A DNA stretch of 39,071 nt from Stramenopiles sp. TOSAG23-6 (taxonomy: Eukaryota > Sar). The notes below the pieces were generated by a model, which was given only the letters and a program-made list of their open reading frames with translations, had not been told where the DNA came from and did no database searches. The position numbers were made by a program, and so were the translations under genes. The stretch is taken from contig LT635938.1 of NCBI GenBank assembly GCA_900128565.1, forward strand, positions 1 to 39,071, read 5' to 3'. Of the stretch, positions 53-39,071 are shown piece by piece; positions within the stretch are counted from its first letter, which is position 1, and each line of letters starts with the position of its first letter.

Positions 53-1550
53 ATGATATTTTCTGATGAATTTTCTACTACATTATCTACTATTTTTTTT
101 GAATTTTGAATTTGAGATCCTATAGAAATATTTTCTATTCTAATTCTTGTCAAATAACCATGTATTTTGGAAAAATATTTCAAAATTTTTTTACCAAAAA
201 AAAAAAAAATTTGTTAGGTACAAAATTTTTTTACCAAAAAAAAAAAAAATTCGACTTTTTTGTAAAAAAAAAATAATAAAACATACATGTCGACCAAATG
301 GAAGCTCAACTCCTTGAGGTATTTTAGGAATTTTAGGAGGTATTTCAGGAGAAGTAGTGCATTCATTGTAACATGTATCTAAAACTTTTGTCTCTGTAAT
401 AGAATCTAAAGATTTATTCTTTAGGCTTGACAATAATTCCGAATCATTACAATTTTCATCATTTACTACAGTTGTATTAAACACTTGTACTGGTATGTAC
501 ATTCTAGATGTTAGTGAATACACACCAAATACAGGAGCATGATCACTTATATCACAACCTTGAACTTTATGCACTGCTTCATATACATATTTCATATTTG
601 TCTTGTCATTGGCTACTACTGACACTAATCCTACTTGTTTATCATGTTGTTGTTGTTGTTGTTTATCATGTTGTTTATCATGTTGTTGTTTATCATGTTG
701 TTGTTGTTGTTGTGGCATTGGACAAAGGATACCTGGATCATACATATCCTTTTTTGCATCTGAAAAAGAAAGTTGAGAGTAAATAATTCGATCACACCAG
801 CCAGGACAACGTTCTTTGACACTTCTACCTTTATATATGGGTTCTTTATACAACGTACGATAGACTTTTCGTGGCCAATCTACTCGAATCATTTCGATTT
901 CATCATCTTTTTCAAGTTTAATTGGAGATAACGGAACATCATAAATTTCATCATTTTTTACATTTATATGCGCACTCTTTCGTACAGACTGTCTTGGTGT
1001 ATTGCACCAATTGGAGAGATTCTCATTTCTACCTTCATATAGCTTATGTATTGTGAATTTTTTTTTTTTCTGATTTTTTTTTGTTAGGTACAAAATTTCA
1101 TACGAAAAAAAAAAACATTGGAAATGAATTATAAAAACGTACATATGTAGGAAAGAAGTTATCTGCTTTTTTAGGTTCTTTAAACCCAACCCATGCATTA
1201 CCCATTTTCTGATCTAATCGAAAAGTGTCATAATCATCATGTAAATGACGTAATTTTGTCTCACCACCACCGATACAATTTAAAACATTTTCAGTAGTTA
1301 CATGTATTTTGAAAAAATATTATTTTTTTTTTTTTGGAAAAAAAGTTCGTTAGGTACAAAATTTGCTATGAAAAAAAACAATGAAGAAAAAAATCATGAT
1401 GTAAGACATACACTTTCCAATCTGTAATTTAAATCACCCATCCAAACTAAGTTATGAAATTGTTGATTCAAATCAAAATGTTTATCACCAAGTCGATTTC
1501 CAAGTCTATTCATAATATCCGCTATTTGAATAATTCTTGCTGCAGGGTTC
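1..1550 (-). CDS. Inositol polyphosphate 5-phosphatase, partial (left copy)
   Basis: Four exons on the minus strand (1412-1550, 1143-1301, 287-1045, 53-159) are separated by introner-type introns and encode about 387 residues. The family motifs appear in order: VWMGDLNYRL (the Mg/phosphate-binding WxGDxNYR motif), FFPTYK, CPGWCDRII (the PxWCDR motif) and SDHAPVFG. These are the signatures of Mg-dependent enzymes that remove the 5-phosphate from phosphoinositides or soluble inositol phosphates. After the catalytic domain an exon reading YLTRIRIENISIG could begin a C2-like domain. A Gln/His/Asp/Lys low-complexity tract lies between PGWCDR and SDHAPV. Both ends are missing: the 3' end runs off the contig inside an intron, and the 5' part is replaced by the end of the lipase maturation factor gene, joined out of frame. 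Family assignment is firm; the specific paralogue is not. Confidence 0.88.
160..286 (-). mobile_element. Introner-like intron I (left copy)
   Basis: A 127-nt phase-0 intron between GRH and GYLTRI codons. It begins GTATGTTTTATT, contains GTACCTAAC and ends CCAAAATACAT, with TG on both sides of the element body. It is longer than its relatives because a segment of T-run plus GGTAAAAAAATTTT occurs twice in tandem. Confidence 0.85.
636..713 (-). repeat. CAA/CATGATAAA low-complexity tract in 5-phosphatase exon
   Basis: On the coding strand, runs of CAA alternate with CATGATAAA and encode Gln-rich units broken by HDK. The tract sits between the PGWCDR and SDHAPV motifs, where the family usually has a short loop, so it is probably a tolerated surface expansion. 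Confidence 0.85.
1046..1142 (-). mobile_element. Introner-like intron H (left copy)
   Basis: A 97-nt phase-0 intron starting GTACGTTTTT and ending CACAATACAT. Splicing at this AT restores FPTYK, whose Lys is conserved in the family. The nearest AG, three bases downstream, would delete that Lys. The core is GAAATTTTGTACCTAAC. Confidence 0.85.
1302..1411 (-). mobile_element. Introner-like intron G (left copy)
   Basis: A 110-nt phase-0 intron just after the GDLNYRLES codons. It starts GTATGTCTTAC, carries GTACCTAACGA and ends AAAATACAT. The next AG downstream is 42 nt into the exon, and using it would remove the VTTENVLNCI segment that fits the family spacing. The body is flanked by TG on both sides. 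Confidence 0.85.
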
Positions 1551-1614
1551 ATGGATTATGAAAAAATATTTCAATAAAAAATTCGTTAGGTACAAAATTT
1601 CGTATAAAAAATAC
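1551..1614 (-). mobile_element. Introner-like intron F, short version at LMF/5-phosphatase join
   Basis: At 64 nt this is the shortest copy. It reads GTATTTTTTAT directly into ACGAAATTTTGTACCTAACGA and ends ATAATCCAT. The right arm carries 35 extra nt at the 1603/1604 boundary. The exons on its two sides are not in compatible frames: the lipase maturation factor side leaves one base over and the 5-phosphatase side needs two. The two flanking gene pieces probably belong to different genes. Confidence 0.75.
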
Positions 1615-3513
1615 ATAGACATAAAGCAATGATTGATACTGTCGTTGACTTGATACAACTAATTACGTTTACGACAATATTAAAACATATTTGTCTTCTT
1701 TTACCCTTTTTTTCTGTGATGCATGTATTGGTGAAAAATATTTTTTTTTTGATAAAAAATCATTAGGTACAAAATTTCGTATGAAAAAAAACGTTTTGAA
1801 ATGAATGATGAAAACGTACATATTTTTCGAAAATTTAATAAAAAGGTATATATCATTTGTAGTGAAATTCCTATACAAAATGTACCTAATATATATGGGA
1901 GTATTTGACTACATATTGCATTTAATGTTTTTAATGGAAGCGACCACGACATGCTCATTTATTTTGGTAAAATATTTCAAAAAAAATCTAAAAAATTTTG
2001 TTAGGTACAAAATTTCCTATAAAATTCGAAATTGAAAAAAATAAAACATACATTTTACCCAATGAAGGATCATTTAGAAACAAATGTACTAAAAACTTCA
2101 CAAAAGAAAGACTAAAATTTTCAGATAAAGTTATAATTTTTGGATCATTTTTTGTATCATTTTCGTTCCAAATCTTCAATTCAAATACATGTATTTTGGA
2201 AAAATATTTCCAAAAAAAATCGTTAGGTACAAAATTTCGTACGAAAAAAAATTCAAATTTGAAAAAAAATAAAACGTACATACGCAGAAATTCCAATACA
2301 AAATGAAATAAACGCTACAAAAAATGCACTGCTCATAGTTCGAGAATTATATTTGCTATCCACTCCAGAAGAATGTTTGTATGCTCTATTTTGTTTTTTT
2401 CGTAGGAAACAAGTACAAATACATGAAAACAGCCATGTTGGTGAAAAAATATGTCACACAAAAAAAATCGTTAGGTACGGAATTTTCTATAAAAAAAAAA
2501 ACATTGATATTCATCATAAAAACATATAGGATAGACAAAAATCGTCGACCAATGGAATACATAAGCAAATCGTTAGAAGATTAAAAAATGTATAATTCCC
2601 AGTCATAATTATGAGTACCTGCAAGGCTGATTGTGTAACTGCAGCTGTAAGTCTTAAGAAACGAATAAGTATTGTGAAAAAATATTTCAAAAACAAATCG
2701 TTAGGTACAAAATTTCGTATGAAAAAATTAAATTTAAATCTGAAATTCGTGATGAAAATGTACAGGACAAATAATTAATATAGACAGTGGAATTTCTATA
2801 AGTAGGCAAATTCCAACAGAAAGTTGCTGATAAAACGGAGGCAATTGGTGAGCAAACCATGCAAAAGGTGTTGGTATACACTGTGTGGCATAATGATAAT
2901 CAAGAGCAGTCAAGGATTTCCATGTTTTACACCTTGACTGGAGTTTTACTACTCCCGAGAGAAGCATTAACTTAAAAAAAATTAGGCGAAGCAACCAACG
3001 AACTACATGTGAAGGACTTTTACCATTGTAAATTTTTATCCATGGTGCCCATAGAATTGATGCGGCGCCGACCTCTAAAAGTAAAATATCCCACTGAAAA
3101 CTCATGAACGTCCTACCCGTTGAATAAAGTGAGAAATAGGTGATCCACTGAATATACAAAAATACAGCTGGATAGGTTCCTAATAACACAAAAAAGGAAA
3201 CAAGTACACCAAGAAGAGACAATAGCTCATGAAATGTATCAATATCGAAAGCCAAATGATTGTGAAAGATTGCAAGTGTGGTGGGCTGAAAATTTAACGT
3301 ATTCTCAACAAAGAAGGTGATAGGATCTGAAGTCACTGGTATATTTTGTATAGGAATTAAACCATTTTGTTGAGAGTACAGCCCCGGGTACTGCCAAAAA
3401 TATGAAGAAAATGCAATCAAATATACAAAACCAATTGCTCGAAGAAATATCTTTCTTGACAGTACATACGTACTCTTCTTGTGTTCATTGTCATGCTTGT
3501 GCATGGTTACCAT
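1615..3513 (-). CDS. Lipase maturation factor-like membrane protein, 3' truncated (left copy)
   Basis: ATG at 3513 opens a first exon of 250 codons (2764-3513), followed by exons 2528-2666, 2280-2434, 2052-2188, 1820-1956 and 1615-1722, all joined in frame across introner-like introns, for about 475 residues. Hallmarks of the LMF1/LMF2 family are visible: [44 protein letters not shown] and LVDD. Members are multi-pass endoplasmic-reticulum proteins that help dimeric lipases fold. Several hydrophobic segments fit that topology. The luminal C-terminal domain of the family (NxYGLF region onward) is absent: the frame meets a stop created at intron F or runs into another gene. It is divergently arranged with the calpain-like gene, 216 bp apart. 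Identity of the first 300 residues is solid; the later exons rest on frame continuity. Confidence 0.85.
1723..1819 (-). mobile_element. Introner-like intron E (left copy)
   Basis: A 97-nt phase-1 intron starting GTACGTTTTC, with the core variant GTACCTAATGA, ending CCAATACAT. Flanks are TG on both sides. The next AG downstream would create an immediate stop. Confidence 0.8.
1957..2051 (-). mobile_element. Introner-like intron D (left copy)
   Basis: A 95-nt phase-2 intron starting GTATGTTTTATT, core GTACCTAACAAA, ending CAAAATAAAT. Flanks are TG on both sides. An AG three bases into the next exon would also keep frame, so this copy alone does not decide the acceptor. Confidence 0.8.
2189..2279 (-). 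mobile_element. Introner-like intron C (left copy), consensus-like
   Basis: A 91-nt phase-0 intron and the cleanest copy: GTACGTTTTATT, then TTCGTACGAA, GAAATTTTGTACCTAACGA, the hairpin TTGGAAA-TATT-TTTCCAA, and AAAATACAT at the end. Flanks are TG on both sides. Confidence 0.88.
2435..2527 (-). mobile_element. Introner-like intron B (left copy), atypical 5' end
   Basis: A 93-nt phase-1 element. Alignment with its relatives puts the 5' end at ATATGTTTTTATG, so the first bases are AT rather than GT. A GT nine bases upstream (GTCTATCC) keeps the same phase and is the alternative donor. It has GTACCTAACGA and ends CACCAACAT. Confidence 0.7.
2667..2763 (-). mobile_element. Introner-like intron A (left copy)
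   Basis: A 97-nt phase-0 intron that starts GTACATTTTC, carries CATACGAAATTTTGTACC and ends CACAATACTT. Joining the exons at this TT gives CPIRFLRL, which aligns without gaps to the lipase maturation factor family. None of the nearby AGs restores that frame. Confidence 0.85.
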
Positions 3514-3729
3514 TTAATTTTAATCTACTACTAAGTCTTGATAAAATTTTTGTAGCATTCTGAATATTTTTTGATAATTAAATCATTTGAAAATCACGAA
3601 TTCTGGAACAGAATGACCGTTTCACTTCTTCGAAAAATGAAGTCTAAAATACAGTATCTATCTTGATTTTTGTTGCCTGTGGCTTGTTTTCCATTGCATA
3701 TCGAAATTGAATAAACATCGTAGGTTACA
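3514..3729. promoter_or_regulatory. Divergent promoter region, LMF / calpain-like
   Basis: 216 bp separate two start codons on opposite strands, so both promoters and 5' UTRs must lie here. The sequence is AT-rich and I recognise no specific factor site. Confidence 0.5.
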
Positions 3730-6700
3730 ATGGTGGTACCACCAATATTAGTAGACGATATCATTCCCCATCAGTTATTGCCAGAATGGGACGTCTCAAA
3801 GATACCCAACGAAGAAGCAAACGAAGAAGCTTCTCCTTTTGAAGATCCCCAGGGTTTGCCTGAGCTTCCAGCGAATCTTGAGTGTCAAATTTCAGAGTGG
3901 GTTAGACCGAAGGAATTGGCTGCACTAAAGCGCAGTAAGGAAGAATCTAATTCAGCAGGCGATGCAAACACATCCGAGGCAGTGGATGGAAGTCAAAATG
4001 CCGATACATCTGATAATACTACAGAAACTGTAGGAAAAGATAATGAAACTTTGGAGGAAAAAAAGGATGAAACAAAAGATACAGAAGATGAAGATGTAGT
4101 AGCACCAATTGAAGACAAAATTACTTACGCTGTTGCTAAACCAATATATGTTGCAAATACGATAGTAAAAATGTTACCGCGTAAGTTAGTGGCAGCAAGC
4201 AGTGACGCTGCAAAACTTTTAGCTTCACAATTGGAGTTAGTAGGTAATCATTCAAAACTTGTCAAAAACGGGTCTTTTTTATGGGAATTAATTCATCCTC
4301 AATTAGACGAAAACGCCTTGCCAAAACTAAGTAACACTGGAAGATACTTTGTGCGTTTGTTTGTAAGTGGTGCGTGGCGATGTGTCGAAATTGACGATCG
4401 CGTTCCTGTAGACGCCTTGGGGAACTGCCTATTCCCAGTATCAATGGATGCTGGTGAGATTTGGCCACTTATTCTTGCTAAAGCTCTCTATAAAGTGGCA
4501 GCTTCACAACGTGCTACTACTATTGTGAATGATGCTACAAGTCCAACTGTGTTGCGAAGACTCACTGGATGGGTATTCGAGCCATATACGTTAGGTCCTT
4601 TACAAGCATCAATCCCGGTGCAACTGAAAGCGACAGGATATCCTGATATTGACAAAATTGATTCGGATGCGTCTGAAAGTACCGGGCAGAACGACAATGA
4701 AGACTCTACGAATGAAAATAAAACTAGAGTTCCAAGATTACTCTGCCTACTATGTACTGATAGCACCAATGTCAATGGTGTAGAAGTTGGTTGCATTTAT
4801 GGCGTGTCAATGGTAAAACCAAAATCAATAAAGATACAAGGAAGTATTAACTATGCGATGTGGAGACACGAAATTCGCCGAGCTTTTGATACTCTGTCTC
4901 CAGTTGATGGAAAGAAGGAGTCTGTACTTCAAACAGAGCTTGTTGACATGTTGCATGAAGATGATATGCAGCTTGCATTAAAAGCTGCGTGTCTTGCGAA
5001 ACCTGGGGCTTTGAATAATCTTGATATTAGCGCGCAATCAGAGGAAAACAATCAGGCATCGATATCATGGGATGAATTTATTCGCATGTTTGATAATCTT
5101 ATACTAATTGAAGAGTCTGATATTGACGTACCATTCGGTGATATTTTACAAGCTTTTTCACCTGTAACAAATCTTGTATTCTGTCACAATGCACCCAATA
5201 TTAATGTTTCTGAGAAAAAGGCGGAAGATGATGATACTACGGAAACAGAAATTGATACAAATACTAAAACTACAAATATTGTATCAACAAGTTTTCATTG
5301 GAATTGGAAAAGTCCCACAACTGATACTGTTTCTGCAGAAGGTGATGACAACCAAAGTACAATTATAGTAAAGTCAGGAGGTAAAAATAATGCACGTTTG
5401 GAAGATGGATATATACGTCAAGGTGATGGTGATGCGTCCATTGAAGCGGAAAGTTGCATCGAGGAAATGTACTCGCCTATGCTTTGGGTTGATGGAGGTA
5501 TCACAGGAAGTCGTGTGGTTATAAACTTTGAAACAGATGCAACTTTGAAATCGAACACAGATGACGAAAAACACACGGGGTACATTTTGCTTATGGAGGA
5601 AATAAAAGGAAGTCCTTGGAGGGAACAGACCAAAGAGCAAGATGGAATATTTGGGTCACAGAGGCCGTGCGTGCCTCCAAAGACTTACCAAGTGATGTGT
5701 ACACGTGGTGACATTGCTGCTATGTCTTTCAATGTGTCTCCTGGCGAACATTTTTATCGTATGTCTGTTGACTGCTCTTGGGGTTGGAATGTGACATATT
5801 TTTCAGATGCCCCTATTTTATTAGGTCCGGTGACAAAAGTATTAAAAGATGTATCAGGAATGAACGGGACACAATTTAAAAGTCAATATTCACTAGTAGA
5901 AAATGAGGATTTTGTCGAAGAAAGTATTGTTGATGGTTCTAATAATAGTTGGCGCATTCTTGGAGCCCAAGTATTTCGTGTTCCAGAGCAAAGTGGTACT
6001 TCTGTCGGTGCTACATTGCATATGTCGGATCATATATGGCAACAATACGTGCGATTATCAATCATTGATAGAGATACTGGTACAAAGACATCCATGGGAT
6101 CTTTGGAGATGTCTATTCGAAATCTCCCTGCAAATTCGGAAGGGTATTGCCTTGTAGCAACGTATGAAAACTCTGTGAAAGATTTGCCTGGGAGTAAATG
6201 GAGAATGAGTATATTAAGTAGCGACCCATTATTGGATTGTGTCCCAGTTAATTTTGATAAACTGAAGACTGTTCTTGGAGTATACCAACCAAATAAGTAC
6301 AAGCGATTCTTTCGATTACGAATAACATCGCCAACTGGTGATGATGAAGAAGAAACATCTTTCAATCAGCACCTTGCACTGCGACTTTCGGTATCTGACC
6401 CATCAATTTATGTTCAATTGAATGTTCTTATGGTACTGGAAGAAAACCAAAGTGACCAAGATGATATTTTACCCGAACATCCAGTATGTAAATATGTTCG
6501 TAGTGATGGTGGTGTATCTGACGATTTCGTTGTTGTATCTAAACGTGGCAAGGGTTCAGCAGAATTACTGTATGTACCTGGTTTTGGTCCGAAAGGTAAA
6601 GAAGTTTTAATACAAGCTAGTTTCGATGCAGAAAGGTTTTTAGTTCCATCGAAGTGGAGTTCAGAATCTCCCTATTGGGAAAAAGGTGGACAAGATGTCG

Positions 6701-7338
6701 ATGGTGGTGGTGAAGACTCAGAATCAAGTCCTATTTCGAGCATTGATGAGCTCAGTTGGAAACTTACTATGAATAGTAAGATTGCAGTTACCGCTACACC
6801 ATGTAGGAAGCGTGAAGATTTATTCAATAATATTCGTGATCTCTGGGAGAAAAATTCTCCAGGTCGCGCAGAGAATGCAAAGAAATATTTTGATGAAAGA
6901 AATTCAAATAGCAATACTGAAACAAATACCGAAATAAATACTGAAGGAAGTACTGAAGGAAATGAAGATGCTTCTCCAAGTTCAAACATGCGACCAAATA
7001 TTGAACTGAAATATATTGCATCAAATTCTGCCCCTGATGAAGTTTCCGTCATCACCGTAGGCGAATGGAATGACGTAAAAGCATCAAGAAAAAAGCAACT
7101 TGAAGGGATGAAAGAGTTTTGGACGCAATGGGATGAACAAAGAGTCACAAACAAGCAAGAGCGTTTTAGAATACTTCAAAGTATTATTGGTGGAACAGAT
7201 GAGGATGAGACTGCAAGTGGCATATTAGGCGACATGAATAGATCTCAAAAGTCATACAATGCGTTTTTGTTAGATAGATTCAATACAATCACTAAATTAT
7301 CAGAATCGCCAGAAATAGTTCCTACAGAATCTTCATAA
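3730..7338 (+). CDS. Androglobin-like calpain-domain protein, probably non-catalytic (left copy)
   Basis: An intronless frame of 1202 codons from ATG 3730. The first 140 residues are acidic and low in complexity. Residues about 190-330 resemble the second half of a calpain protease core: FLWELIHPQ, GRYFVRLFVSGAWRCVEIDD, GEIWPLILAKALYKV and LTGWVFE. This arrangement is typical of androglobin and related calpain-like proteins, known in animals from sperm and cilia. The catalytic triad looks lost: no GDCW-type cysteine motif precedes the domain, the usual GHAYS histidine position reads GCIYGVS, and there is no NPWG asparagine motif. Beta-rich repeated modules resembling calpain domain III follow (about residues 590-1010), with a charged C-terminus. 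I cannot identify a globin domain. It is divergent from the lipase maturation factor gene and convergent with UTP18, whose frame ends 92 bp away. Sure of a calpain-like fold, less sure of orthology. Confidence 0.65.
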   Translation: MVVPPILVDDIIPHQLLPEWDVSKIPNEEANEEASPFEDPQGLPELPANLECQISEWVRPKELAALKRSKEESNSAGDANTSEAVDGSQNADTSDNTTETVGKDNETLEEKKDETKDTEDEDVVAPIEDKITYAVAKPIYVANTIVKMLPRKLVAASSDAAKLLASQLELVGNHSKLVKNGSFLWELIHPQLDENALPKLSNTGRYFVRLFVSGAWRCVEIDDRVPVDALGNCLFPVSMDAGEIWPLILAKALYKVAASQRATTIVNDATSPTVLRRLTGWVFEPYTLGPLQASIPVQLKATGYPDIDKIDSDASESTGQNDNEDSTNENKTRVPRLLCLLCTDSTNVNGVEVGCIYGVSMVKPKSIKIQGSINYAMWRHEIRRAFDTLSPVDGKKESVLQTELVDMLHEDDMQLALKAACLAKPGALNNLDISAQSEENNQASISWDEFIRMFDNLILIEESDIDVPFGDILQAFSPVTNLVFCHNAPNINVSEKKAEDDDTTETEIDTNTKTTNIVSTSFHWNWKSPTTDTVSAEGDDNQSTIIVKSGGKNNARLEDGYIRQGDGDASIEAESCIEEMYSPMLWVDGGITGSRVVINFETDATLKSNTDDEKHTGYILLMEEIKGSPWREQTKEQDGIFGSQRPCVPPKTYQVMCTRGDIAAMSFNVSPGEHFYRMSVDCSWGWNVTYFSDAPILLGPVTKVLKDVSGMNGTQFKSQYSLVENEDFVEESIVDGSNNSWRILGAQVFRVPEQSGTSVGATLHMSDHIWQQYVRLSIIDRDTGTKTSMGSLEMSIRNLPANSEGYCLVATYENSVKDLPGSKWRMSILSSDPLLDCVPVNFDKLKTVLGVYQPNKYKRFFRLRITSPTGDDEEETSFNQHLALRLSVSDPSIYVQLNVLMVLEENQSDQDDILPEHPVCKYVRSDGGVSDDFVVVSKRGKGSAELLYVPGFGPKGKEVLIQASFDAERFLVPSKWSSESPYWEKGGQDVDGGGEDSESSPISSIDELSWKLTMNSKIAVTATPCRKREDLFNNIRDLWEKNSPGRAENAKKYFDERNSNSNTETNTEINTEGSTEGNEDASPSSNMRPNIELKYIASNSAPDEVSVITVGEWNDVKASRKKQLEGMKEFWTQWDEQRVTNKQERFRILQSIIGGTDEDETASGILGDMNRSQKSYNAFLLDRFNTITKLSESPEIVPTESS

Positions 7339-7430
7339 TATAATCTATCAATAAAAAGAATAATCCAAAAAATCAAAATATATGTTTTGTTTTATATTTA
7401 TTACAGTAGCAATACTATATAATCATTCTA

Positions 7431-8951
7431 TTAAGCCTGGGTGTAGTGCTGAAGTCTGTACAATAAAACCTTGCCTTTGTCATTTCCTATAGAAAGAAAG
7501 CCACTATGTGGGCTAAATGAAGTAGAACTAACGTACCCTAAAGGTGTGTTTGAAGTAGGCCAATTTTGGTAAGTTGTGAAACTTGGACAATGAACAATTT
7601 TAAATTGATCTTTAATTCGTTGAGACCGAATTGAAAGCAACTGTGAATCATGGTTAAACGTTAAACCATCAATGGCTGTGGTTAAATTCATAATAGCTTT
7701 GGTTGGTACAGGTGTAGCTTCTTTAGATGCCTTTTCTGCATCATATATGTTAACTACACCTGCTTCTGATCCAATTGCGTAATATTTACCATTTGGAGAA
7801 ACTGCAATTGCACTGCCTGTCATTCCACCTTCATCAGCGTGCCTGTGAATACATCTTCTGTCATTCAGACTCCATCTGTACACATCTCCATCAGTACCAA
7901 CAGTGAGTAACTCAGAACAATCAGGCGTAAAAGCAACAGCACGAACAGCCCCGTTCATTTTGAGGTTGGCAATCCATTGTTTTGTTTTTCCTGAAACTAG
8001 TATCACATATCCGTCATTACCCAAAAAAGCAATCCAACGACCATCTGACGAAGCCACAACCTTTTCAAGAGATTTCTCTTTACGACCAGCAATACGCGGA
8101 ATTTTAAGAACAGAACCTGATGCTATATCAACTGTGTAAAAGAATGGTCGACGGCCAGTTGCAATTATTTGTTCTGATCCCACTGCTGAAGAACCACAAC
8201 CTGAAAATGTTGCAGTCCTGATGGGCATGTCTGGAAATACAACACCTTGAATTTTTCTATTAAACTTTCCATCTATATCAAATAGTCTCAATTTTTTATC
8301 CAATCCAGCAGTAAGCATCAACGAGCGTCTCGTGTGAAATTCTACAGATTGCACAACAGCATCAGAAATTTCTTCAGCATTTGCGTCTTTTACTCGCAAT
8401 ACCGAGAGTTGTTCCTTTCTAATTGCAGCAGTTGAAGACCTCAGCATTGAGGCAGATGTTTTAAACAAATCTACAGCCAGACCATTCGTCATGTCATCAG
8501 CAATGGCAGAAGCAAACTTGAGACTTGGGGGCACTTCAGGTATGGCGGCCCACGACGTCGCAGGGTTCATTTTACAAAATTGCGAACGAAGACGACGCGC
8601 GTATTCAGCACCTGATACAACTGTTTCTTCTTCTGTCTTTCGAAGTTTCCGAAGCCGGTTTGTTGCACTAATATCAAAACTCTCTCTATCATCATCTGAA
8701 TCATTCCATGCAGGTTTTAAACACAGCTTTCTCTTACCGCCTGATTTTGATGAATTTCGAAAGTCGTTGTTTATTGTTTCTGAAGTACCACCTGTAAAAA
8801 TTGCATCACCTTCATTTCCAGACTCAGAGTCAGACATACTGTCACTCTCCTCCCCAAATTTCAATGCTGGACCACCAAATAGACTAGATGCAAGCTCTTT
8901 TTCTGAATCATCTGCATGCATTATCGCTGGAGTTGGTTTAGATTCTCCCAT
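7431..8951 (-). CDS. UTP18: U3 snoRNA-associated WD-repeat protein UTP18 (left copy)
   Basis: A 506-residue intronless protein. An acidic, serine-rich N-terminal half contains the family's short conserved block AEYARRLRSQF followed by NPATSWA. From about residue 200 a WD40 propeller follows: VQSVEFHTRRSLMLTAGLDKK, RLFDIDG, RRPFFYTVDI, GSDG-like turns and VNIYDAEKAS. UTP18 is a component of the small-subunit processome (UTP-B module) that works in the nucleolus on early 18S rRNA maturation. Length is close to yeast and human homologues. ATG 8951 is taken because no upstream in-frame ATG precedes it and the N-terminus is a normal acidic start. The gene is convergent with the calpain-like gene and divergent from the 240-aa gene (about 220 bp between starts). 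Confidence 0.9.
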   Translation of the reverse strand: MGESKPTPAIMHADDSEKELASSLFGGPALKFGEESDSMSDSESGNEGDAIFTGGTSETINNDFRNSSKSGGKRKLCLKPAWNDSDDDRESFDISATNRLRKLRKTEEETVVSGAEYARRLRSQFCKMNPATSWAAIPEVPPSLKFASAIADDMTNGLAVDLFKTSASMLRSSTAAIRKEQLSVLRVKDANAEEISDAVVQSVEFHTRRSLMLTAGLDKKLRLFDIDGKFNRKIQGVVFPDMPIRTATFSGCGSSAVGSEQIIATGRRPFFYTVDIASGSVLKIPRIAGRKEKSLEKVVASSDGRWIAFLGNDGYVILVSGKTKQWIANLKMNGAVRAVAFTPDCSELLTVGTDGDVYRWSLNDRRCIHRHADEGGMTGSAIAVSPNGKYYAIGSEAGVVNIYDAEKASKEATPVPTKAIMNLTTAIDGLTFNHDSQLLSIRSQRIKDQFKIVHCPSFTTYQNWPTSNTPLGYVSSTSFSPHSGFLSIGNDKGKVLLYRLQHYTQA

Positions 8952-11654: not shown

Positions 11655-14522
11655 ATGTGGTATCTAGAGAGCACTGCGAATGCTACGACTGTGTCACAAT
11701 TTTGGTTGGTAGCAGGTAGGCACACGGTGGGCCGAAAGGGAGCAATTGCGTTGGTTAACGACAAGTCTGTTAGTCGTCATCACGCGACGGTTATAGTAGC
11801 TGTTTCATTTGACTGTAAAGACGAACAATCAATTCCAAGTATTCAAATAGAAGATAAATCCAAATTTGGTACAAGTGTAAATGGAGAACGTCTCCAAAAA
11901 GGAGAAACTTACAATCTTTGTGACGGAAGCCTCATCGAGTTTGGCGTTTCGAAGTCTGTGTTTGTATTACGTTGGAAGCCGCTTTTATTATGTGTTTCTC
12001 GTGCAGACAAAGCATCTAAAAAGAGAGTTAAAGTTTTAGCAATGAAAATCGGTGCTCATATCACAAGCGTTTGGTGCAGTCGTTGTACTCATCTGGTTCT
12101 CTGTGGTACATTTGCGATAACGTTCAAAGTAATTTGGGCTCTTCTTCAAAGCAAACCGATTATTACACCTAGATGGCTCAGCGATGTCGCGGGAGGTCAA
12201 CCTACATCGATGAGTAATGGCACAGTACATAAATTACGCACGACTTTACCTCAAATACAATCTTATCTTCCTGAAGGTCAGGAGTCGTATACTTGTCAAC
12301 TATTACCAAATTCTCAGAGAAATCAAATGTTTCAAGGTTTTACTTTTATTTTCACTCATCCTTCAGACTATTCAGATATTGTCGAAGCTGGTCAGGCGCA
12401 AACTATTCGGTTGTTTTTATCTACTGTTGAATGCACAGATGATGATTTTCAAAAGTGGTCTAAAAATGATACATGCTTTGTGTACATTTAAAAAATTGAA
12501 TGTTTTACATAAATTATTTTTCGTACGAAAATTTGTGCCTAACAAAAACAATTAAATTAAAATATTTTTTTCACAATACATGGTTGAACCTATCCAAGGT
12601 CTAGTTCATAGATCCTCACAAATTTCATCCATAACACAGGCTAGTCAAGTATTTGGTGTATCTCATTCTAAAGGGCATTTAAATACATTTTGTTCAGATT
12701 TTATTCAGACTGAGAATTTTAATAGAGCTTCAGAAGCAGGAATTGGTGTATTTTCAGAAGGCGATTTCCCAAAGTGTATACTACAAATGATTACCCCAAT
12801 TAAAAAAAACGTAGAAAAAACTGTACACCAAGAGATTATATATGAAAATCCTGTAGGAAAAATGAATAATGAAAAATCCAAAAATGTATCTGTCATGAAT
12901 GCTTGTCGTGTAAATGTAGATAATAAAATAATTCAACAAGTAGAAGATAAAATAATTCAACAAGTAGATAATAAAATAATTCAACAAGTAGAAGAAATCA
13001 ATAATTGCGAAGCGAGTACATCCGTAGACAAACCTAACACACATAATACTACAGTGAAAACTTCATCGAAGAAAGATATTTTGTCGTCTTCGACAAAACA
13101 AATAACAAGAAGTGCAAGGAAGAAACGATGTGGGAGGAATGGACGCCGAGTCGGTCATATTGGTAAGAGAAAACCTATTGAAGTATTTACAAATGATAAT
13201 AAAAGCGATGTAAACGATGTGCAAAATAGTGCAGAGGACAAAGAGAGTGATAAAATTGTGAAGGAGTGTGTTGAAAGTACCAAAGTTGATTGTGGCAATG
13301 ATGAAGTTGTACCATCACTAGTACAAGATAATGAAGTTATACCATCACTAGTACAAAATAATGAAGTTATACCATCACTAGTTCAAGATAATGAAGTTAT
13401 ACCACCACTAGTTCAAGATAATGTAGTTATACCACCACTAGTTCAAGATAATGAAGTTGTACCATCACTAATACAAGATAATGAAGTTATACCACAACTA
13501 GTAATTGATAGCAATAAAAATAAATCTGCATGTCGTTGGCAAACAAAAAAGCGTCATCGAAATGAAATAGGAAATAAAAGTGAAAATTCTTCAAATGAAA
13601 ATGATTCTGATAATGACGGTTTCATTTCAAAAAAGAGGAAAACTCAATCATCATCATCACAAAAAAAAGGAGGCGACATTCTTGTCGGCGACTTGGAAGA
13701 AATAGATACTCTAAACCCGAGTAATGTTGATAATAGTAGTAATGCGTTTATACCTCCAAATGAGCGAAGACATGTATGTTTTATTTTTTTTTCAATTTCG
13801 AATTTTTTTTCATACGAAATTTTGTACCTAACGATTTGTTTTTGAAATATTTTTCCAAAATACATTTGAACGAAAATGGTCCATGTTGGATCTCGGCAAT
13901 ACACAAAGAAAATACATCGAATAGTTTGAACAGTTTTGATGATGAAAAGAATGTAAAATATGCAAAAGTAATTCCACGACAAATTCATACAAATAATCAA
14001 ATACAATCTAATGATGAAAATGAGGGAAGTGCGATTAAATTTTCTCAGGATCATCGGAAAAATAGTGAGGACTCTGGTACTAATTTTAAAAAATTTCGGA
14101 AAAATTTTTACACAGTTTCTAAACAACATCACAGAGTTGCATTTTGTAGTCCAAGAGAATATGTTATACCTGGAAATGGTTCGGAAGCGTTGCAACGTCG
14201 TCGCAACCAATATGCACACGAGGAGATGCTTGAGCGTGAAGCTGAGGAGCTTTGGGTTTTTGATCAGAGGCAAGTGAAGAAAGCTCCATTATCAAAAGCA
14301 CAACAAGAAAAAGCAGAAAATGCAAAGTCTAAAGCAAAATCTAAAGCAAACGAAGCGAAACAAAACGCAAATGCAATTGATTGGCAACAATTGCGCCGTG
14401 ATGGTTTAGTTCAAAAACAAAAAGTTTCTGTTCTAAAAGCCTTCTTACGCAGCAGAAAGTTAAAAGTTGGAGGTCGGAAGGGTGAATTAGTCGAGAGAGT
14501 TTTAATTGAACTTGGGGGATAA
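11655..14522 (+). CDS. NBS1: NBS1/nibrin homologue with C-terminal SAP domain (left copy)
   Basis: Three exons (11655-12481, 12582-13773, 13866-14522) join in frame across two introner-like introns into 891 residues. The start MWYL resembles the nibrin N-terminus. An FHA domain follows (VAGRHTVGRK, DKSVSRHHA, FGTSVNGE), then two BRCT-like domains (about residues 110-190 and 210-290; CFVVEP is created by the first splice). The middle is low complexity, with two in-frame tandem repeats. The C-terminal part has NFKKFRK at about 746-752, the MRE11-binding motif of nibrin, then EREAEELWVFD at about 794-804, resembling the acidic-aromatic ATM-binding tail. A SAP DNA-binding motif (about 860-889, VSVLKAFLRSRKLKVGGRKG) ends the protein. 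NBS1 is the nuclear regulatory subunit of the MRE11-RAD50-NBS1 break-repair complex. The terminal SAP is unusual for nibrin. Confidence 0.88.
12482..12581 (+). mobile_element. Introner-like intron N1 in NBS1 (left copy)
   Basis: A 100-nt phase-2 intron starting GTACATTTAAA, with TTCGTACGAA, the core variant AATTTGTGCCTAACA, and the end TTTTTTCACAATACAT. Splicing at the terminal AT gives CFVVEPIQG and keeps frame; the nearest downstream AGs lead to stops. Flanks are TG on both sides. Confidence 0.85.
12919..12990 (+). repeat. Three 24-bp tandem repeats in NBS1
   Basis: Three in-frame units encode DNKIIQQV, EDKIIQQV and DNKIIQQV in the low-complexity middle of NBS1. Confidence 0.9.
13300..13509 (+). 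repeat. Seven 30-bp tandem repeats in NBS1
   Basis: Seven units encode variants of the decapeptide NEVIPSLVQD. The 30-bp period keeps the frame, so unit number could vary without breaking the gene. Confidence 0.93.
13774..13865 (+). mobile_element. Introner-like intron N2 in NBS1 (left copy)
   Basis: A 92-nt phase-0 intron: GTATGTTTTATT, CATACGAAATTTTGTACC, CTAACGA, and CCAAAATACAT at the end. It joins ERRH to LNENGPCW in frame. No AG occurs in the first dozens of exon bases. Flanks are TG on the 5' side and TT on the 3' side. Confidence 0.87.
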
Positions 14523-16991: not shown

Positions 16992-18076
16992 TCACAATTT
17001 TATTTTTTCATGAATTTTATAAATATTCTTCTCTATTTTGTTCATAGCTATTTCTGTAGCATTATACACTTCTTCTTGACTAAGCGATGCATCAATAGGA
17101 TACACTTTAGAATCGTCAATTTCTCTGAAAAGTTCGACTATTGGAAAAGTTTCTTTATAAAATGTGTTGAACCCTATGAAGTGAAAAAATATTTCAAACA
17201 TTTGAAATTCGTTAGGTACGAAATTTTGTATGAAAAAAAAAAAATGAAGTGGATAAACATACTTTTTCTAATTGATAAAATATTATCATCTTCTCTACCA
17301 CTGACTTTCCCTCTTTCTAATAGTCGCCTCTCTAATATCTTTTGATCGCATGTATAGTACAACATACCACTATATTTGATTGTAGGGTTAGGTGCAGTTT
17401 TTCCGACAGAATTTATAAAATTTTCATTTCTCAAAAGCTTCAGTTGATCAATCCAACCAACGAAATTATCCAAATTTCTTGGGAATCCATCCACCAGAAA
17501 GTTTTGTTTATCACTTTGTGCAATTTTTCGTTGAATCAATCGAACAGTCAATTCTGCAGGAACAATTGAGCCATCTTTAATACACTTGGAAATTAAAATG
17601 CCGTCTTGACTCTTGGGATTACATTGTTCTTCTCGTAAACAATCTCCGGCTGAAATGTGAGTAAACTTGGAATATTTTTTTTCTATCAATTTCGATTGAG
17701 TACCTTTTCCAGAACCAGGACCACCAAGTATGAAGACTACCGACTTAATGGGGTGTAAAGACTCTGTTTTAGTTAAGCTCTCCACATCAAAAAACCCTGA
17801 CATACTCAAGTTTTCTTTCATATGAGGTGAAAGCCAGGTAGTAAATTTTTGTGTTGAGCACTCTACATCAAAGAAACCTGACATACTCAAAGTTTCTTGA
17901 ATATGTGGTGAAAGCCAGGTAGTAAAACTTCGTACTTTAGCTGGATCGACATGAGCTTGGAATCTACAGAAACTTCCCGATAAAGATAAAACAGAAGAAC
18001 GTTGTGCGAGATAACTCGAATGAGGTTTCGGCCAGCGACTTAAGAAACGATTGAAGAAACGATTAAACGGCTGCAT
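16992..18076 (-). CDS. UMP-CMP kinase-like nucleoside monophosphate kinase
   Basis: Two exons (17263-18076, 16992-17173) join to 331 residues. The P-loop GGPGSGKGTQ is at 118-127. It is followed by THISAGDCLREE, NPKSQDGILI, IVPAELT, FLVDGFPRNLDNFVGW and ERGKVSGREDDN. The short LID and NP.SQ.G pattern match UMP-CMP kinase rather than long-LID adenylate kinase; the enzyme would phosphorylate UMP/CMP with ATP. The first 110 residues are an extra N-terminal extension. It starts with an Arg/Phe/Ser-rich stretch that looks like a mitochondrial presequence and then contains a 27-residue unit repeated twice (51-104). The intron belongs to the introner family but uses a GT-AG boundary, giving RKRFNTFYKET, which aligns without gaps to the family. 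Divergent from the transporter gene (368 bp). Confidence 0.88.
17174..17262 (-). mobile_element. Introner-like intron in UMP-CMP kinase, GT-AG
   Basis: An 89-nt phase-1 intron. It starts GTATGTTTATCC, carries CATACAAAATTTCGTACC and CTAACGAA, and ends TTTTTTCACTTCATAG. It shares the family core, but here frame and family alignment require removal of a final AG beyond the usual CAT. It is the only copy outside the duplicated arms. Confidence 0.85.
17765..17926 (-). repeat. Two 81-bp in-frame tandem repeats in kinase presequence region
   Basis: The unit encodes FTTWLSPHIQETLSMSGFFD plus seven residues, and is repeated with a few changes immediately before the catalytic domain. Its function is unknown; the conserved TTWLSPH and SMSGFFDVE pieces suggest recent duplication or selection on a short motif. 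Confidence 0.9.
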
Positions 18077-18444
18077 AACAAAAGCTATAAATATTGATGC
18101 TGATATTCTACCTTTGTAAAGTTATGTGGAAGGTATTACGAAGCGTTCAAAAAAGTACAGTTTATGCAATATTCATGTAAAGTCGCACTTTTACAGTCAA
18201 AAGTCTCCAGAAAGTTCAAAAAGTAGTCAATTCAATTGACGACATCTGGATTTTGGACTGACTTGTACAACACGAATTCTGAGTTCCTACGAAAAATTTG
18301 CTACCCTTTAAGTAGGAAATTTTGTACCAAATACCATGGCCATCGAAAACCAGTAATATAAGTGGTTCCTGTGCAACCGGATAATACGTAGGTAATTTTG
18401 ACAGAACGACGACTTCACTTGTAAATTTCCGAATTTCGTCTTAA
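18077..18444. promoter_or_regulatory. Divergent promoter region, kinase / transporter, with introner-core match
   Basis: 368 bp between divergent start codons. It contains TTCCTAC (18284-18290) and its inverted copy GTAGGAA (18312-18318), running into GAAATTTTGTACC (18316-18328), a 13-base match to the introner core. No gene seen. Confidence 0.5.
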
Positions 18445-35307: not shown

Positions 35308-35523
35308 TGTAACCTACGATGTTTATTCAATTTCGATATGCAATGGAAAACAAGCCACAGGCAACAAAAATCAAGATAGATACTGTATTTTAGACTTCAT
35401 TTTTCGAAGAAGTGAAACGGTCATTCTGTTCCAGAATTCGTGATTTTCAAATGATTTAATTATCAAAAAATATTCAGAATGCTACAAAAATTTTATCAAG
35501 ACTTAGTAGTAGATTAAAATTAA
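35308..35523. promoter_or_regulatory. Divergent promoter region, calpain-like / LMF (right copy)
   Basis: Mirror of 3514-3729; AT-rich, with no recognised factor site. Confidence 0.5.
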
Positions 35524-37422
35524 ATGGTAACCATGCACAAGCATGACAATGAACACAAGAAGAGTACGTATGTACTGTCAAGAAAGATATTTCTTCGAGC
35601 AATTGGTTTTGTATATTTGATTGCATTTTCTTCATATTTTTGGCAGTACCCGGGGCTGTACTCTCAACAAAATGGTTTAATTCCTATACAAAATATACCA
35701 GTGACTTCAGATCCTATCACCTTCTTTGTTGAGAATACGTTAAATTTTCAGCCCACCACACTTGCAATCTTTCACAATCATTTGGCTTTCGATATTGATA
35801 CATTTCATGAGCTATTGTCTCTTCTTGGTGTACTTGTTTCCTTTTTTGTGTTATTAGGAACCTATCCAGCTGTATTTTTGTATATTCAGTGGATCACCTA
35901 TTTCTCACTTTATTCAACGGGTAGGACGTTCATGAGTTTTCAGTGGGATATTTTACTTTTAGAGGTCGGCGCCGCATCAATTCTATGGGCACCATGGATA
36001 AAAATTTACAATGGTAAAAGTCCTTCACATGTAGTTCGTTGGTTGCTTCGCCTAATTTTTTTTAAGTTAATGCTTCTCTCGGGAGTAGTAAAACTCCAGT
36101 CAAGGTGTAAAACATGGAAATCCTTGACTGCTCTTGATTATCATTATGCCACACAGTGTATACCAACACCTTTTGCATGGTTTGCTCACCAATTGCCTCC
36201 GTTTTATCAGCAACTTTCTGTTGGAATTTGCCTACTTATAGAAATTCCACTGTCTATATTAATTATTTGTCCTGTACATTTTCATCACGAATTTCAGATT
36301 TAAATTTAATTTTTTCATACGAAATTTTGTACCTAACGATTTGTTTTTGAAATATTTTTTCACAATACTTATTCGTTTCTTAAGACTTACAGCTGCAGTT
36401 ACACAATCAGCCTTGCAGGTACTCATAATTATGACTGGGAATTATACATTTTTTAATCTTCTAACGATTTGCTTATGTATTCCATTGGTCGACGATTTTT
36501 GTCTATCCTATATGTTTTTATGATGAATATCAATGTTTTTTTTTTTATAGAAAATTCCGTACCTAACGATTTTTTTTGTGTGACATATTTTTTCACCAAC
36601 ATGGCTGTTTTCATGTATTTGTACTTGTTTCCTACGAAAAAAACAAAATAGAGCATACAAACATTCTTCTGGAGTGGATAGCAAATATAATTCTCGAACT
36701 ATGAGCAGTGCATTTTTTGTAGCGTTTATTTCATTTTGTATTGGAATTTCTGCGTATGTACGTTTTATTTTTTTTCAAATTTGAATTTTTTTTCGTACGA
36801 AATTTTGTACCTAACGATTTTTTTTGGAAATATTTTTCCAAAATACATGTATTTGAATTGAAGATTTGGAACGAAAATGATACAAAAAATGATCCAAAAA
36901 TTATAACTTTATCTGAAAATTTTAGTCTTTCTTTTGTGAAGTTTTTAGTACATTTGTTTCTAAATGATCCTTCATTGGGTAAAATGTATGTTTTATTTTT
37001 TTCAATTTCGAATTTTATAGGAAATTTTGTACCTAACAAAATTTTTTAGATTTTTTTTGAAATATTTTACCAAAATAAATGAGCATGTCGTGGTCGCTTC
37101 CATTAAAAACATTAAATGCAATATGTAGTCAAATACTCCCATATATATTAGGTACATTTTGTATAGGAATTTCACTACAAATGATATATACCTTTTTATT
37201 AAATTTTCGAAAAATATGTACGTTTTCATCATTCATTTCAAAACGTTTTTTTTCATACGAAATTTTGTACCTAATGATTTTTTATCAAAAAAAAAATATT
37301 TTTCACCAATACATGCATCACAGAAAAAAAGGGTAAAAGAAGACAAATATGTTTTAATATTGTCGTAAACGTAATTAGTTGTATCAAGTCAACGACAGTA
37401 TCAATCATTGCTTTATGTCTAT
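35524..37422 (+). CDS. Lipase maturation factor-like protein, 3' truncated (right copy)
   Basis: Exons 35524-36273, 36371-36509, 36603-36757, 36849-36985, 37081-37217 and 37315-37422 join in frame (phases 0, 1, 0, 2, 1). Family landmarks are [42 protein letters not shown] (made by the first splice), [10 protein letters not shown] and LVDD. The last exon leaves a single T, and the next exon begins GA, so an exact splice would create TGA. The family's luminal C-terminal domain is missing, which suggests that the true 3' half lies elsewhere in the genome. Confidence 0.85.
36274..36370 (+). mobile_element. Introner-like intron A (right copy)
   Basis: 97 nt, phase 0, GTACATTTTC to CACAATACTT. The acceptor position is fixed by the gapless family match CPIRFLRL. 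Confidence 0.85.
36510..36602 (+). mobile_element. Introner-like intron B (right copy)
   Basis: 93 nt, phase 1, ATATGTTTTTATG to CACCAACAT; the alternative donor is the GT at 36501. Both donors preserve frame. Confidence 0.7.
36758..36848 (+). mobile_element. Introner-like intron C (right copy), consensus-like
   Basis: 91 nt, phase 0. Carries every family element in order: TTCGTACGAA, GAAATTTTGTACCTAACGA, a 3' hairpin with loop TATT, and AAAATACAT. Flanks are TG on both sides. Confidence 0.88.
36986..37080 (+). mobile_element. Introner-like intron D (right copy)
   Basis: 95 nt, phase 2, GTATGTTTTATT to CAAAATAAAT. Flanks are TG on both sides. Confidence 0.8.
37218..37314 (+). mobile_element. 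Introner-like intron E (right copy)
   Basis: 97 nt, phase 1, GTACGTTTTC to CCAATACAT, core variant GTACCTAATGA. Flanks are TG on both sides. Confidence 0.8.
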
Positions 37423-37521
37423 GTATTTTTTATTTTTTTTTTACAAAAAAATCGAATTTTTTTTTCGTACGAAATTTTGTACCTAACGAATTTTTTATTG
37501 AAATATTTTTTCATAATCCAT
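37423..37521 (+). mobile_element. Introner-like intron F, long version at LMF/5-phosphatase join
   Basis: 99 nt, GTATTTTTTATT to ATAATCCAT. It includes 35 bases (37434-37468) absent from the left arm; these resemble the 5' part of introns I and J (T-run, ACAAAAAAATCGAA, T-run, CGT). The flanking exons are out of frame with each other. Confidence 0.75.
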
Positions 37522-39071
37522 GAACCCTGCAGCAAGAATTATTCAAATAGCGGATATTATGAATAGACTTGGAAATCGACTTGGTGATAAACATTTTGAT
37601 TTGAATCAACAATTTCATAACTTAGTTTGGATGGGTGATTTAAATTACAGATTGGAAAGTGTATGTCTTACATCATGATTTTTTTCTTCATTGTTTTTTT
37701 TCATAGCAAATTTTGTACCTAACGAACTTTTTTTCCAAAAAAAAAAAAATAATATTTTTTCAAAATACATGTAACTACTGAAAATGTTTTAAATTGTATC
37801 GGTGGTGGTGAGACAAAATTACGTCATTTACATGATGATTATGACACTTTTCGATTAGATCAGAAAATGGGTAATGCATGGGTTGGGTTTAAAGAACCTA
37901 AAAAAGCAGATAACTTCTTTCCTACATATGTACGTTTTTATAATTCATTTCCAATGTTTTTTTTTTTCGTATGAAATTTTGTACCTAACAAAAAAAAATC
38001 AGAAAAAAAAAAAATTCACAATACATAAGCTATATGAAGGTAGAAATGAGAATCTCTCCAATTGGTGCAATACACCAAGACAGTCTGTACGAAAGAGTGC
38101 GCATATAAATGTAAAAAATGATGAAATTTATGATGTTCCGTTATCTCCAATTAAACTTGAAAAAGATGATGAAATCGAAATGATTCGAGTAGATTGGCCA
38201 CGAAAAGTCTATCGTACGTTGTATAAAGAACCCATATATAAAGGTAGAAGTGTCAAAGAACGTTGTCCTGGCTGGTGTGATCGAATTATTTACTCTCAAC
38301 TTTCTTTTTCAGATGCAAAAAAGGATATGTATGATCCAGGTATCCTTTGTCCAATGCCACAACAACAACAACAACATGATAAACAACAACATGATAAACA
38401 ACATGATAAACAACAACAACAACAACATGATAAACAAGTAGGATTAGTGTCAGTAGTAGCCAATGACAAGACAAATATGAAATATGTATATGAAGCAGTG
38501 CATAAAGTTCAAGGTTGTGATATAAGTGATCATGCTCCTGTATTTGGTGTGTATTCACTAACATCTAGAATGTACATACCAGTACAAGTGTTTAATACAA
38601 CTGTAGTAAATGATGAAAATTGTAATGATTCGGAATTATTGTCAAGCCTAAAGAATAAATCTTTAGATTCTATTACAGAGACAAAAGTTTTAGATACATG
38701 TTACAATGAATGCACTACTTCTCCTGAAATACCTCCTAAAATTCCTAAAATACCTCAAGGAGTTGAGCTTCCATTTGGTCGACATGTATGTTTTATTATT
38801 TTTTTTTTACAAAAAAGTCGAATTTTTTTTTTTTTTGGTAAAAAAATTTTGTACCTAACAAATTTTTTTTTTTTTTGGTAAAAAAATTTTGAAATATTTT
38901 TCCAAAATACATGGTTATTTGACAAGAATTAGAATAGAAAATATTTCTATAGGATCTCAAATTCAAAATTCAAAAAAAATAGTAGATAATGTAGTAGAAA
39001 ATTCATCAGAAAATATCATGTATGTTTTATTTTTTTTTTTACAAAAAAATCGAATTTATTTTTCGTACGAA
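37522..39071 (+). CDS. Inositol polyphosphate 5-phosphatase, partial (right copy)
   Basis: Exons 37522-37660, 37771-37929, 38027-38785 and 38913-39019 read in frame through introns G, H and I. Motifs are VWMGDLNYRL, FFPTYK, CPGWCDRII and SDHAPVFG. The first exon covers only the region just before the WMGDLNYR motif, so the start and first part of the catalytic domain are missing. The last exon runs into intron J at the contig end. Confidence 0.88.
37661..37770 (+). mobile_element. Introner-like intron G (right copy)
   Basis: 110 nt, phase 0, GTATGTCTTAC to CAAAATACAT. The first AG in the following exon is 42 nt downstream. Flanks are TG on both sides. Confidence 0.85.
37930..38026 (+). mobile_element. 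Introner-like intron H (right copy)
   Basis: 97 nt, phase 0, GTACGTTTTT to CACAATACAT. It splits the FPTYK motif between Tyr and Lys. Confidence 0.85.
38359..38436 (+). repeat. CAA/CATGATAAA low-complexity tract (right copy)
   Basis: Mirror of 636-713, the Gln-rich stretch with HDK interruptions; same length in both arms. Confidence 0.85.
38786..38912 (+). mobile_element. Introner-like intron I (right copy)
   Basis: 127 nt, phase 0, GTATGTTTTATT to CCAAAATACAT. An internal tandem duplication of T-run plus GGTAAAAAAATTTT surrounds the GTACCTAAC core. Confidence 0.85.
39020..39071 (+). mobile_element. Introner-like intron J, truncated by contig end (right copy)
   Basis: The 5' part only, phase 2, starting GTATGTTTTATT. 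The window stops at TTCGTACGAA, the mirror of base 1. Confidence 0.8.

Follow-up and report, generated by a model that had tools for sequence, protein, structure and literature searches.

A candidate introner family with mostly non-AG 3' ends in genes of a MAST-3-like stramenopile

The window analysed in this study is the whole 39,071-nucleotide (nt) contig LT635938.1 of Stramenopiles sp. TOSAG23-6 (C396 among the 408 contigs, 8,027,113 bases, of assembly GCA_900128565.1), in which four genes are interrupted by short elements of closely similar sequence. We consider it likely that one introner-like family has filled many genes of this MAST-3-like organism, and that the 3' ends of the resulting introns are set by position and supplied by a duplicated target. 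The element, mostly about 90-130 bp long, typically carries GTAYGT as its 5' splice site, a long fixed block containing the branch-point-like motif GTACCTAAC, a T-run and the end AATAC. On the best reading of the data, the family supplies most or nearly all detectable introns.

The elements were characterized in a sample of 263,563 bases, made up of 25 pieces (L013-L037) and the right half of the window, in which 173 core-like matches (up to four mismatches to the 17-mer core GAAATTTTGTACCTAAC) led to 109 distinct introns parsed with both ends. The 57 core-like matches outside parsed introns, a mixture of chance matches and of copies that are degenerate, unparsed or at a contig edge, were excluded from the counts. 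Window coordinates are 1-based; those of the L pieces have a 0-based start and are counted on the element's own strand.

The elements as introns

Judged by reading frame and protein homology, the elements are introns. In 105 of the 107 introns with 90-nt flanks, the coding score of the flanks is higher on the strand of the element (sense) than on the other, and removal of the sequence from GTAYG to the end of AATACNT keeps the frame exactly in 94 of the 107, the other two frames receiving 7 and 6. Of the two introns with better antisense scores, L033-5385 is probably a false parse, and L018+6551 itself scores close to zero or below. Both flanks are coding-like in 86 of the 107 introns and one flank in 21, with no case of neither; among random places, both sides were coding-like in 1,349 of 4,000. 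Intron phases 0, 1 and 2 occur 44, 31 and 32 times. No copy with both ends in a non-coding or antisense context was noticed by eye among the 57 unparsed matches, no dedicated search for such copies having been made. If they are truly absent, this fits insertion into transcribed DNA or the loss of other copies.

A second, ordinary class of introns was sought in 264 kb, among coding gaps 20-400 nt long. Thirty of the 45 gaps contain the core at up to four mismatches, one contains it within five and 14 lack it; inspected by eye, six of these 14 have the family ends and eight look intergenic. No clear second class of introns was thus found among these gaps, in a test that is blind to long introns and to introns beside short exons.

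Non-AG 3' ends

Few features of eukaryotic introns are as constant as the AG with which they end. Only 2 of the 109 parsed ends have it: the last two bases are AT in 88 introns, GT in 6, TT in 5, AC in 4, AG in 2, AA in 2 and others in 2, a few of these ends being misparses (e.g. L018+2473, entered as TT). The copies in the window likewise mostly end without AG, the exception being that of the UMP-CMP kinase gene. The next AG downstream lies at offsets distributed over the three frames as 29/27/35, and as these offsets are frame-random, the next AG does not appear to be the true end as a rule. An apparently unused AG is present in 26 of 91 introns between the branch block and the end.

Protein alignments agree with the non-AG ends. 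Across such a junction, the protein phosphatase PP1 encoded in L025 (FDNAGG/MMIMRENLMCSF, the slash marking the intron) aligns to PP1-gamma without a gap. In the HACL2/ILVBL gene of L022, seven of nine junctions have no nearby gap relative to at least one homologue, the alignment being judged by reading; compared with a 2-hydroxyacyl-CoA lyase from the PDB, junctions 7 and 8 are gap-free and a one-residue gap stands beside junction 6. Junction 3 of the inositol 5-phosphatase gene (PTY/KLYEG) is gap-free to SHIP2. In the exceptional UMP-CMP kinase gene, the junction of the GT..AG copy (RK/RFNTF) is gap-free to human UMP-CMP kinase.

In 91 of 101 introns the junction can slide. As the end repeat allows this, the readings GT..AT, TGT..CA and AT..AC are inseparable at such junctions. 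Five of the 10 non-sliding junctions look reliable (GT-AC, AT-AT, AT-AC, GC-AG and GT-AT), and all five have A at -2. The remaining five were set aside: three are frame failures (L020-8436, L022+3235 and L030+424), the 5' end is misplaced in another (W+17846), and L021-5451 looks misparsed.

Probable target duplication and copying

Direct repeats at the intron ends were assessed in the 88 of 109 introns that passed the filters. At -2, the same base stands at the end of the exon and of the intron in 72 of the 88, compared with a mean of 57.1 and a maximum of 65 in shuffles. Compared with the exon background, four bases are enriched in the joined target: A at -2 (79/108), T at -1 (95/108), G at +1 (57/109) and C at -3 (39/108). 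On these sequence statistics there is a 2-nt target duplication at an NT target, mostly ATG, supported mainly at -2.

In an alignment of 91 introns, 67 pairs are at least 90% identical in the 5' half (column-shuffled mean 6.8, maximum 21) and 340 in the 3' part (mean 38.4, maximum 66), an excess that may be overstated as column shuffling ignores the dependence between neighbouring columns in T-rich, gapped sequence. Since near-identical pairs exceed the column-shuffled controls, subfamilies appear to exist beyond the shared positional signals. Two introns on the plus strand of L033 abut (7482-7587 and 7587-7678) with no exon between them, and several of the longer introns resemble fusions or duplications of the unit.

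Empty sites were found in paralogues only, where gain and loss are not separable. The exact case is a kinase gene on the minus strand of L025, whose product is 76% identical over 272 amino acids to a paralogue in L015: ACCT and CTGC, separated by a 102-nt intron in L025, are continuous in L015 (ACCTCCGC), without a gap. Two cases are weaker. A second L025 intron, after VSD, lies at the contig edge with its 5' part visible, and L015 continues as VSDDGKDF; and L025 continues at a point where a more distant kinase gene, in L032, is interrupted by an intron after VLIS, the two matching at 50% over 24 amino acids. A preliminary description of the window had proposed that the introns themselves multiplied. 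This view is well supported by copies in unrelated genes that resemble each other beyond column shuffling, and by the close paralogue that lacks one intron exactly.

Distribution in the window and in the assembly

The window forms a near-perfect 39-kb inverted repeat, with 1604-16115/22922-37433 and 1-1616/37456-39071 as its arms, which probably arose by amplification or in assembly. It holds 24 matches to the core at up to three mismatches, where 0.34 were expected and 100 shuffles gave at most 2. The match at 18316 lacks the element ends; the other 23 represent 11 complete elements present in both arms and one single copy. A twelfth doubled copy is truncated at both contig ends (1-51 and 39021-39071). 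The preliminary description had counted 13 distinct copies in 25 places, and folding the palindrome gives the same figures (12 doubled, 1 single). Five copies lie in the LMF gene, five in the inositol 5-phosphatase gene (the last truncated), two in an NBS1-like FHA-BRCT gene and one in the UMP-CMP kinase gene. Pfam matches (LMF1, Exo_endo_phos2, FHA/BRCT and ADK) bear out the four hosts named earlier, the name NBS1 itself being that description's own. Its general plan of the element (a GTAYGTTTT start, a T-rich half, the core, a T-run and AATACAT) also holds, with a departure in LMF intron 2, which starts with GTTTTT. For the hairpin that it placed near the end, the gain in stability over shuffled sequences is slight (mean z -0.71; below -1 in 38 of 94 introns, above 1 in 1).

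The elements occur throughout the genome and are not limited to these four genes. The core at up to two mismatches occurs in 2,618 places (1370 + 1248) of the 8.03-Mb assembly, against 1 + 0 for the reversed control. A strict three-part pattern (5' end, branch block and AATACAT) has 277 + 268 places and its reversed control none; the same pattern ending in AATACAG has 5 + 8, again with none in the reversed controls, so that AATACAT and AATACAG stand at 545 versus 13. All these genome-wide counts include duplicated and palindromic contigs, distinct copies thus being fewer, though still many hundreds, and a few strict-pattern copies are counted twice (e.g. in C28). Contigs C13 and C14, for instance, have the same core places with a shift of 2 bases, and duplicated contigs of this kind inflate the counts.

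Within contigs C1-C34, an exact core lies no more than 60 nt from an end in 10 (C4, C11, C13, C14, C15, C19, C23, C26, C29 and C30), compared with an expectation of 0.3-0.4 (100 places in about 1 Mb), C13 and C14 being duplicates and far ends being counted only where the extent of the contig is known. Contig ends with the core are to be expected if near-identical copies cause breaks in the assembly; the window itself terminates within a copy.

Some core motifs occur in other settings. Degenerate copies of the core form a cluster in L037 (about 5635-7900), two of them near telomere-like CCCTAA repeats. In L019, the motif is found in both directions at one place (1959 on the plus and 8033 on the minus strand), in GC-richer, apparently non-coding sequence without the element ends, and a motif at 2935 on the minus strand of L026 is a comparable case. 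A tandem gene segment in L030 (about 2500-2888) carries in both copies an intron with the family ends and without the core.

Public gene models and the host

Two EukProt entries of GSMAST32.ASY1.ANO1 (P0003 and P0241) are identical to the exons described here, except at junctions and at ends that read into an intron. In the public HACL2/ILVBL model, CYHLD is shrunk to Y, WGDGS (which we take to be the thiamine diphosphate (ThDP) motif) is lost, TQIEREQIPILDS is replaced by I, and AQK by Y. The 5-phosphatase model uses the same GT at 37661, ends the intron at the AG at 37811-37812 with loss of VTTENVLNCIGGGE, and reads into the last intron. Both models thus use the next AG and lose conserved residues. 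Among the best 120 protein matches of PP1 there is no conspecific entry, and no independent transcript was thus found there.

By this sequence identity, the assembly is that of the GSMAST32 organism or a very close one. The host, an uncultured marine protist, is apparently a MAST-3 stramenopile, as indicated by the name GSMAST32, a 50% match to the INCI entry P0006 and a stramenopile-like 5' end of the 18S rRNA gene; here we assume that GSMAST32 is a MAST-3 single-cell genome, that the prefix INCI stands for Incisomonas and that the resemblance of the 18S 5' end is indeed stramenopile-like. MAST-3 single-cell genomes were reported by Seeleuthner et al. 2018, where the text on these lineages calls Incisomonas a MAST-3 organism (PMC5778133).

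Comparison with known introners and unusual introns

By its sequence, the element agrees with an introner in most of the tests run here, the canonical AG ends being an exception. Copies in unrelated genes resemble each other as far as both splice boundaries, the copy number is high (duplicates were not removed genome-wide), and in the sample it is located in genes, intergenic copies not having been searched for separately. Presence and absence at the same position were found in paralogues only, and the target site duplication, a feature of some families only, is 2 nt long and seen mainly at -2. The preliminary description did not recognize the consensus, and we too know of no described introner family that has it. 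The non-AG 3' ends, which are the more unusual part, were absent from that description.

At least one copy (L025, minus strand, 5929-6024) is unambiguously AT-AC, as in U12-type introns. However, the consensus here, GTATGTTTT and GTACCTAAC, does not match the U12-type motifs (RTATCCTTT at the 5' site and TTCCTTAAC at the branch). The introners of Aureococcus, also a stramenopile, and of Micromonas are likewise short mobile introns. In the part of Farhat et al. 2021 that deals with Aureococcus, its elements are described as always having direct repeats, constant terminal inverted repeats and canonical splicing motifs (PMC7789003).

The introners surveyed by Gozashti et al. 2022 (PMC9860276) share with the present family, in the sections that describe them, the occurrence in many genes of an aquatic protist, similarity reaching near both splice boundaries, and an unchanged mRNA length. 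According to the legend of Fig. 2C of that article, the introners of Chrysochromulina also bring their own 5' site and take the 3' end from the target duplication. The present family differs from those accounts in its 2-nt duplication (3-9 bp being cited there for earlier families), in 3' ends that are mostly not AG, and in that one family seems to supply most detectable introns. Neither 'MAST' nor 'stramenopile' occurs in the main text of the article.

The introner elements of Amoebophrya (PMC7789003) are, in the portions of the article on their structure, repeated introns of a marine protist that have non-canonical ends and, across the exon/intron boundary, direct repeats. They are described there as having inverted repeats of 8-20 nt, direct repeats of 3-5 nt and no clear terminal dinucleotides, and as forming 252 and 1954 families. 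In contrast, the family described here has a mostly canonical 5' site, a fixed branch block and a 2-nt repeat, forms one family with subfamilies and belongs to another host lineage. Inverted repeats of 8-20 nt are not present, since the consensus ends pair over 4-6 bp at most, and there are no direct repeats of 3-5 nt, positions -3 to -6 being at chance.

Candidate introners have also been reported from Mirusviruses of marine protists (Medvedeva et al. 2025, PMC12768974), which in the passages on their splice sites are overwhelmingly canonical GT-AG. We found no link to them: exact matches to the core in IMG/VR are confined to 4 contigs, and all are GC-richer, coding-like and without the element ends. 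Sharing with viruses was rejected on this basis. The literature searched, which left out most subscription papers and all bioRxiv preprints, yielded no account of MAST-3 introners or of introns without AG in this group. The word 'intron' occurs twice in the main text of Seeleuthner et al. 2018 and not at all in Labarre et al. 2021.

Alternative explanations

Ordinary ancient introns under unusually rigid splice signals, such as those of budding yeasts or Trichomonas, would be alike through the demands of the spliceosome and not through copying. Conservation is indeed highest in the core, at the ends and in the branch-like CTAAC, which most detectable introns have in common, as a genome-wide constraint would give. 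We nevertheless regard this explanation as unlikely, in view of the similarity outside these signals in excess of column-shuffled controls, the direct repeat at -2, the exact absence in a close paralogue together with the two weaker cases, the contigs that end in elements and the two abutting introns of L033. Removal by something other than the spliceosome, be it DNA elimination, ribosomal bypassing or an RNA mechanism of the kind suggested for the introns of Amoebophrya and of euglenids, is more improbable still. It would accommodate the non-AG ends, the direct repeat beside them and a possible short pairing of the ends (ATGTAT/ATACAT), but the almost uniform sense orientation speaks against DNA elimination, GTATGT, CTAAC and a T-tract follow the spliceosomal layout, a normal-looking Prp8 is encoded, and some copies have AG or AT-AC ends.

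Even less credit can be given to the idea that the introns are canonical GT-AG after all, with the AG hidden inside the apparent downstream exon. The public models of two genes place it there at most of the junctions they cross, and an AG often lies within 15 nt downstream. However, the offsets to the next AG are frame-random, the codons that would be dropped are conserved in homologues (e.g. WGDGS and TQIEREQ), and PP1 and the kinase paralogue align gap-free with a non-AG end. A hidden AG junction was therefore rejected on frame statistics and on protein conservation in PP1, HACL2/ILVBL and the kinase paralogue.

A number of points have to be set against the introner interpretation, in addition to the possibly overstated excess of near-identical pairs. 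The public models are partly transcript-based according to the description of their making in PMC5778133, and they use AG sites, junction-level transcript support not being visible. Frame is broken by 13 of the 107 parsed introns, some of which are visible misparses. Junction 1 of HACL2/ILVBL has a 16-residue gap six residues upstream, its junction 4 lies in a gapped stretch, and a one-residue gap stands beside junction 2 of the 5-phosphatase. As T is nearly fixed at -1, the duplication depends on one informative position (-2): agreement at -1 (75 of 88, P 0.044) is barely above chance, and that at -3 to -6 is at chance. Terminal inverted repeats reach at most 4-6 bp, with GTAT..ATAC in 30 of 109 introns, and an autonomous partner element was not seen in the assembly data viewed, no dedicated search having been made. 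The sample pieces were picked mostly around known core matches, which biases densities upward (50.5 core matches per 100 kb in the sample versus 32.6 in the assembly). Finally, U2 (covariance model and pattern) and U6 (pattern) gave no match, in insensitive searches of a partial assembly; the U2 control, too, matched no genome, so that these results are uninformative.

Individual introns of the window

LMF intron 1 (36274..36370, plus strand; mirror 2667-2763, minus strand) reads CCT/GTACAT..AATACTT/ATT, and its removal restores the frame as CP/IRF within the Pfam LMF1 match. Intron 2 (36514..36602, plus; mirror 2435-2523, minus) reads TATAT/GTTTTT..CCAACAT/GGC. In the exon that follows it, the frame breaks at about 36630-36655, near a run of seven A, owing to a one-base length error or a real mutation. 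Introns 3 (36758..36848, plus; mirror 2189-2279, minus; TAT/GTACG..AATACAT/GTA), 4 (36986..37080, plus; mirror 1957-2051, minus; AAT/GTATG..AATAAAT/GAG) and 5 (37218..37314, plus; mirror 1723-1819, minus; TAT/GTACG..AATACAT/GCA) lie in the same gene.

Intron 1 of the 5-phosphatase gene, near the start codon (TCTAT/GTATTT..ATCCAT/GAACCC), is 99 nt long in the right arm (37423..37521, plus) and 64 nt in the left (1551-1614, minus); its 5' end had been set wrongly upstream by the automatic parse. Given this 35-nt difference, the two arms of the palindrome do not simply mirror each other as copies of a single molecule. Intron 2 (37661..37770, plus; mirror 1302-1411, minus) reads AGT/GTATG..AATACAT/GTAACT and is the one that the public model extends to the AG at 37811-37812. 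Intron 3 (37930..38026, plus; mirror 1046-1142, minus; TAT/GTACG..AATACAT/AAG) forms the junction PTY/KLYEG, intron 4 (38786..38912, plus; mirror 160-286, minus; CGACAT/GTATG..AATACAT/GGT) contains an internal duplication, and intron 5 (39021..39071, plus; mirror 1-51, minus) is cut off by the contig end ahead of the core.

The NBS1-like gene has intron 1 at 12482..12581 (plus; mirror 26456-26555, minus; TTTGT/GTACAT..AATACAT/GGTTGAA) and intron 2 at 13774..13865 (plus; mirror 25172-25263, minus; CGAAGACAT/GTATG..AATACAT/TTGAAC; RRH/LNEN). It also has 30-nt in-frame tandem repeats at 13268-13537. The single copy of the UMP-CMP kinase gene, between the palindrome arms (17174..17262, minus), is canonical GT-AG and reads GAAAAA/GTATGT..CTTCATAG/GGTTC, giving RK/RFNTF. 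The N-terminal part of this gene contains an 81-nt tandem duplication (17767-17928).

Proposed mechanism and implications

We suggest that the element carries its own 5' splice site and would insert at NT, most often at AT before a G, and leave two copies of this dinucleotide. The intron removed would consist of the element and one target copy, so that mRNA length is unchanged; the final dinucleotide would be supplied by the target, hence not AG. New copies may be pasted as DNA by a trans-acting enzyme, and a trans-acting transposase fits the duplication. Removal would fall to the spliceosome, which would recognize the 3' site by where it lies downstream of the branch block. From the layout of GTAYGT, CTAAC and T-tract and from the normal-looking Prp8, we infer that the major spliceosome is at work and that its 3' rule is relaxed. 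Over 916 amino acids Prp8 aligns to the human protein with one single-residue gap, and to this extent its sequence looks normal. Its gene (L038 652-3477, minus strand) is a single open frame over 941 residues (2021 amino acids on the contig); another gene of this genome has nine family introns.

More tentatively, one mobile intron family could have replaced essentially the whole intron complement of the organism, whose spliceosome would no longer need AG and would take the 3' site as a position set by the branch block and spacer of the element, leaving the last dinucleotide to the insertion site; we are slightly less inclined to accept than to doubt this wider claim. The public gene models of this MAST-3-like lineage are probably wrong at many introns, and functional inferences drawn from them need care. 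If the wider claim is true, the invader either relaxed the 3' splice-site rule or exploited a rule already relaxed. A genome whose detectable introns mostly seem to end in AT, copied from the insertion site, would allow a test of how a 3' site is chosen without AG and of how an intron family takes over a genome.

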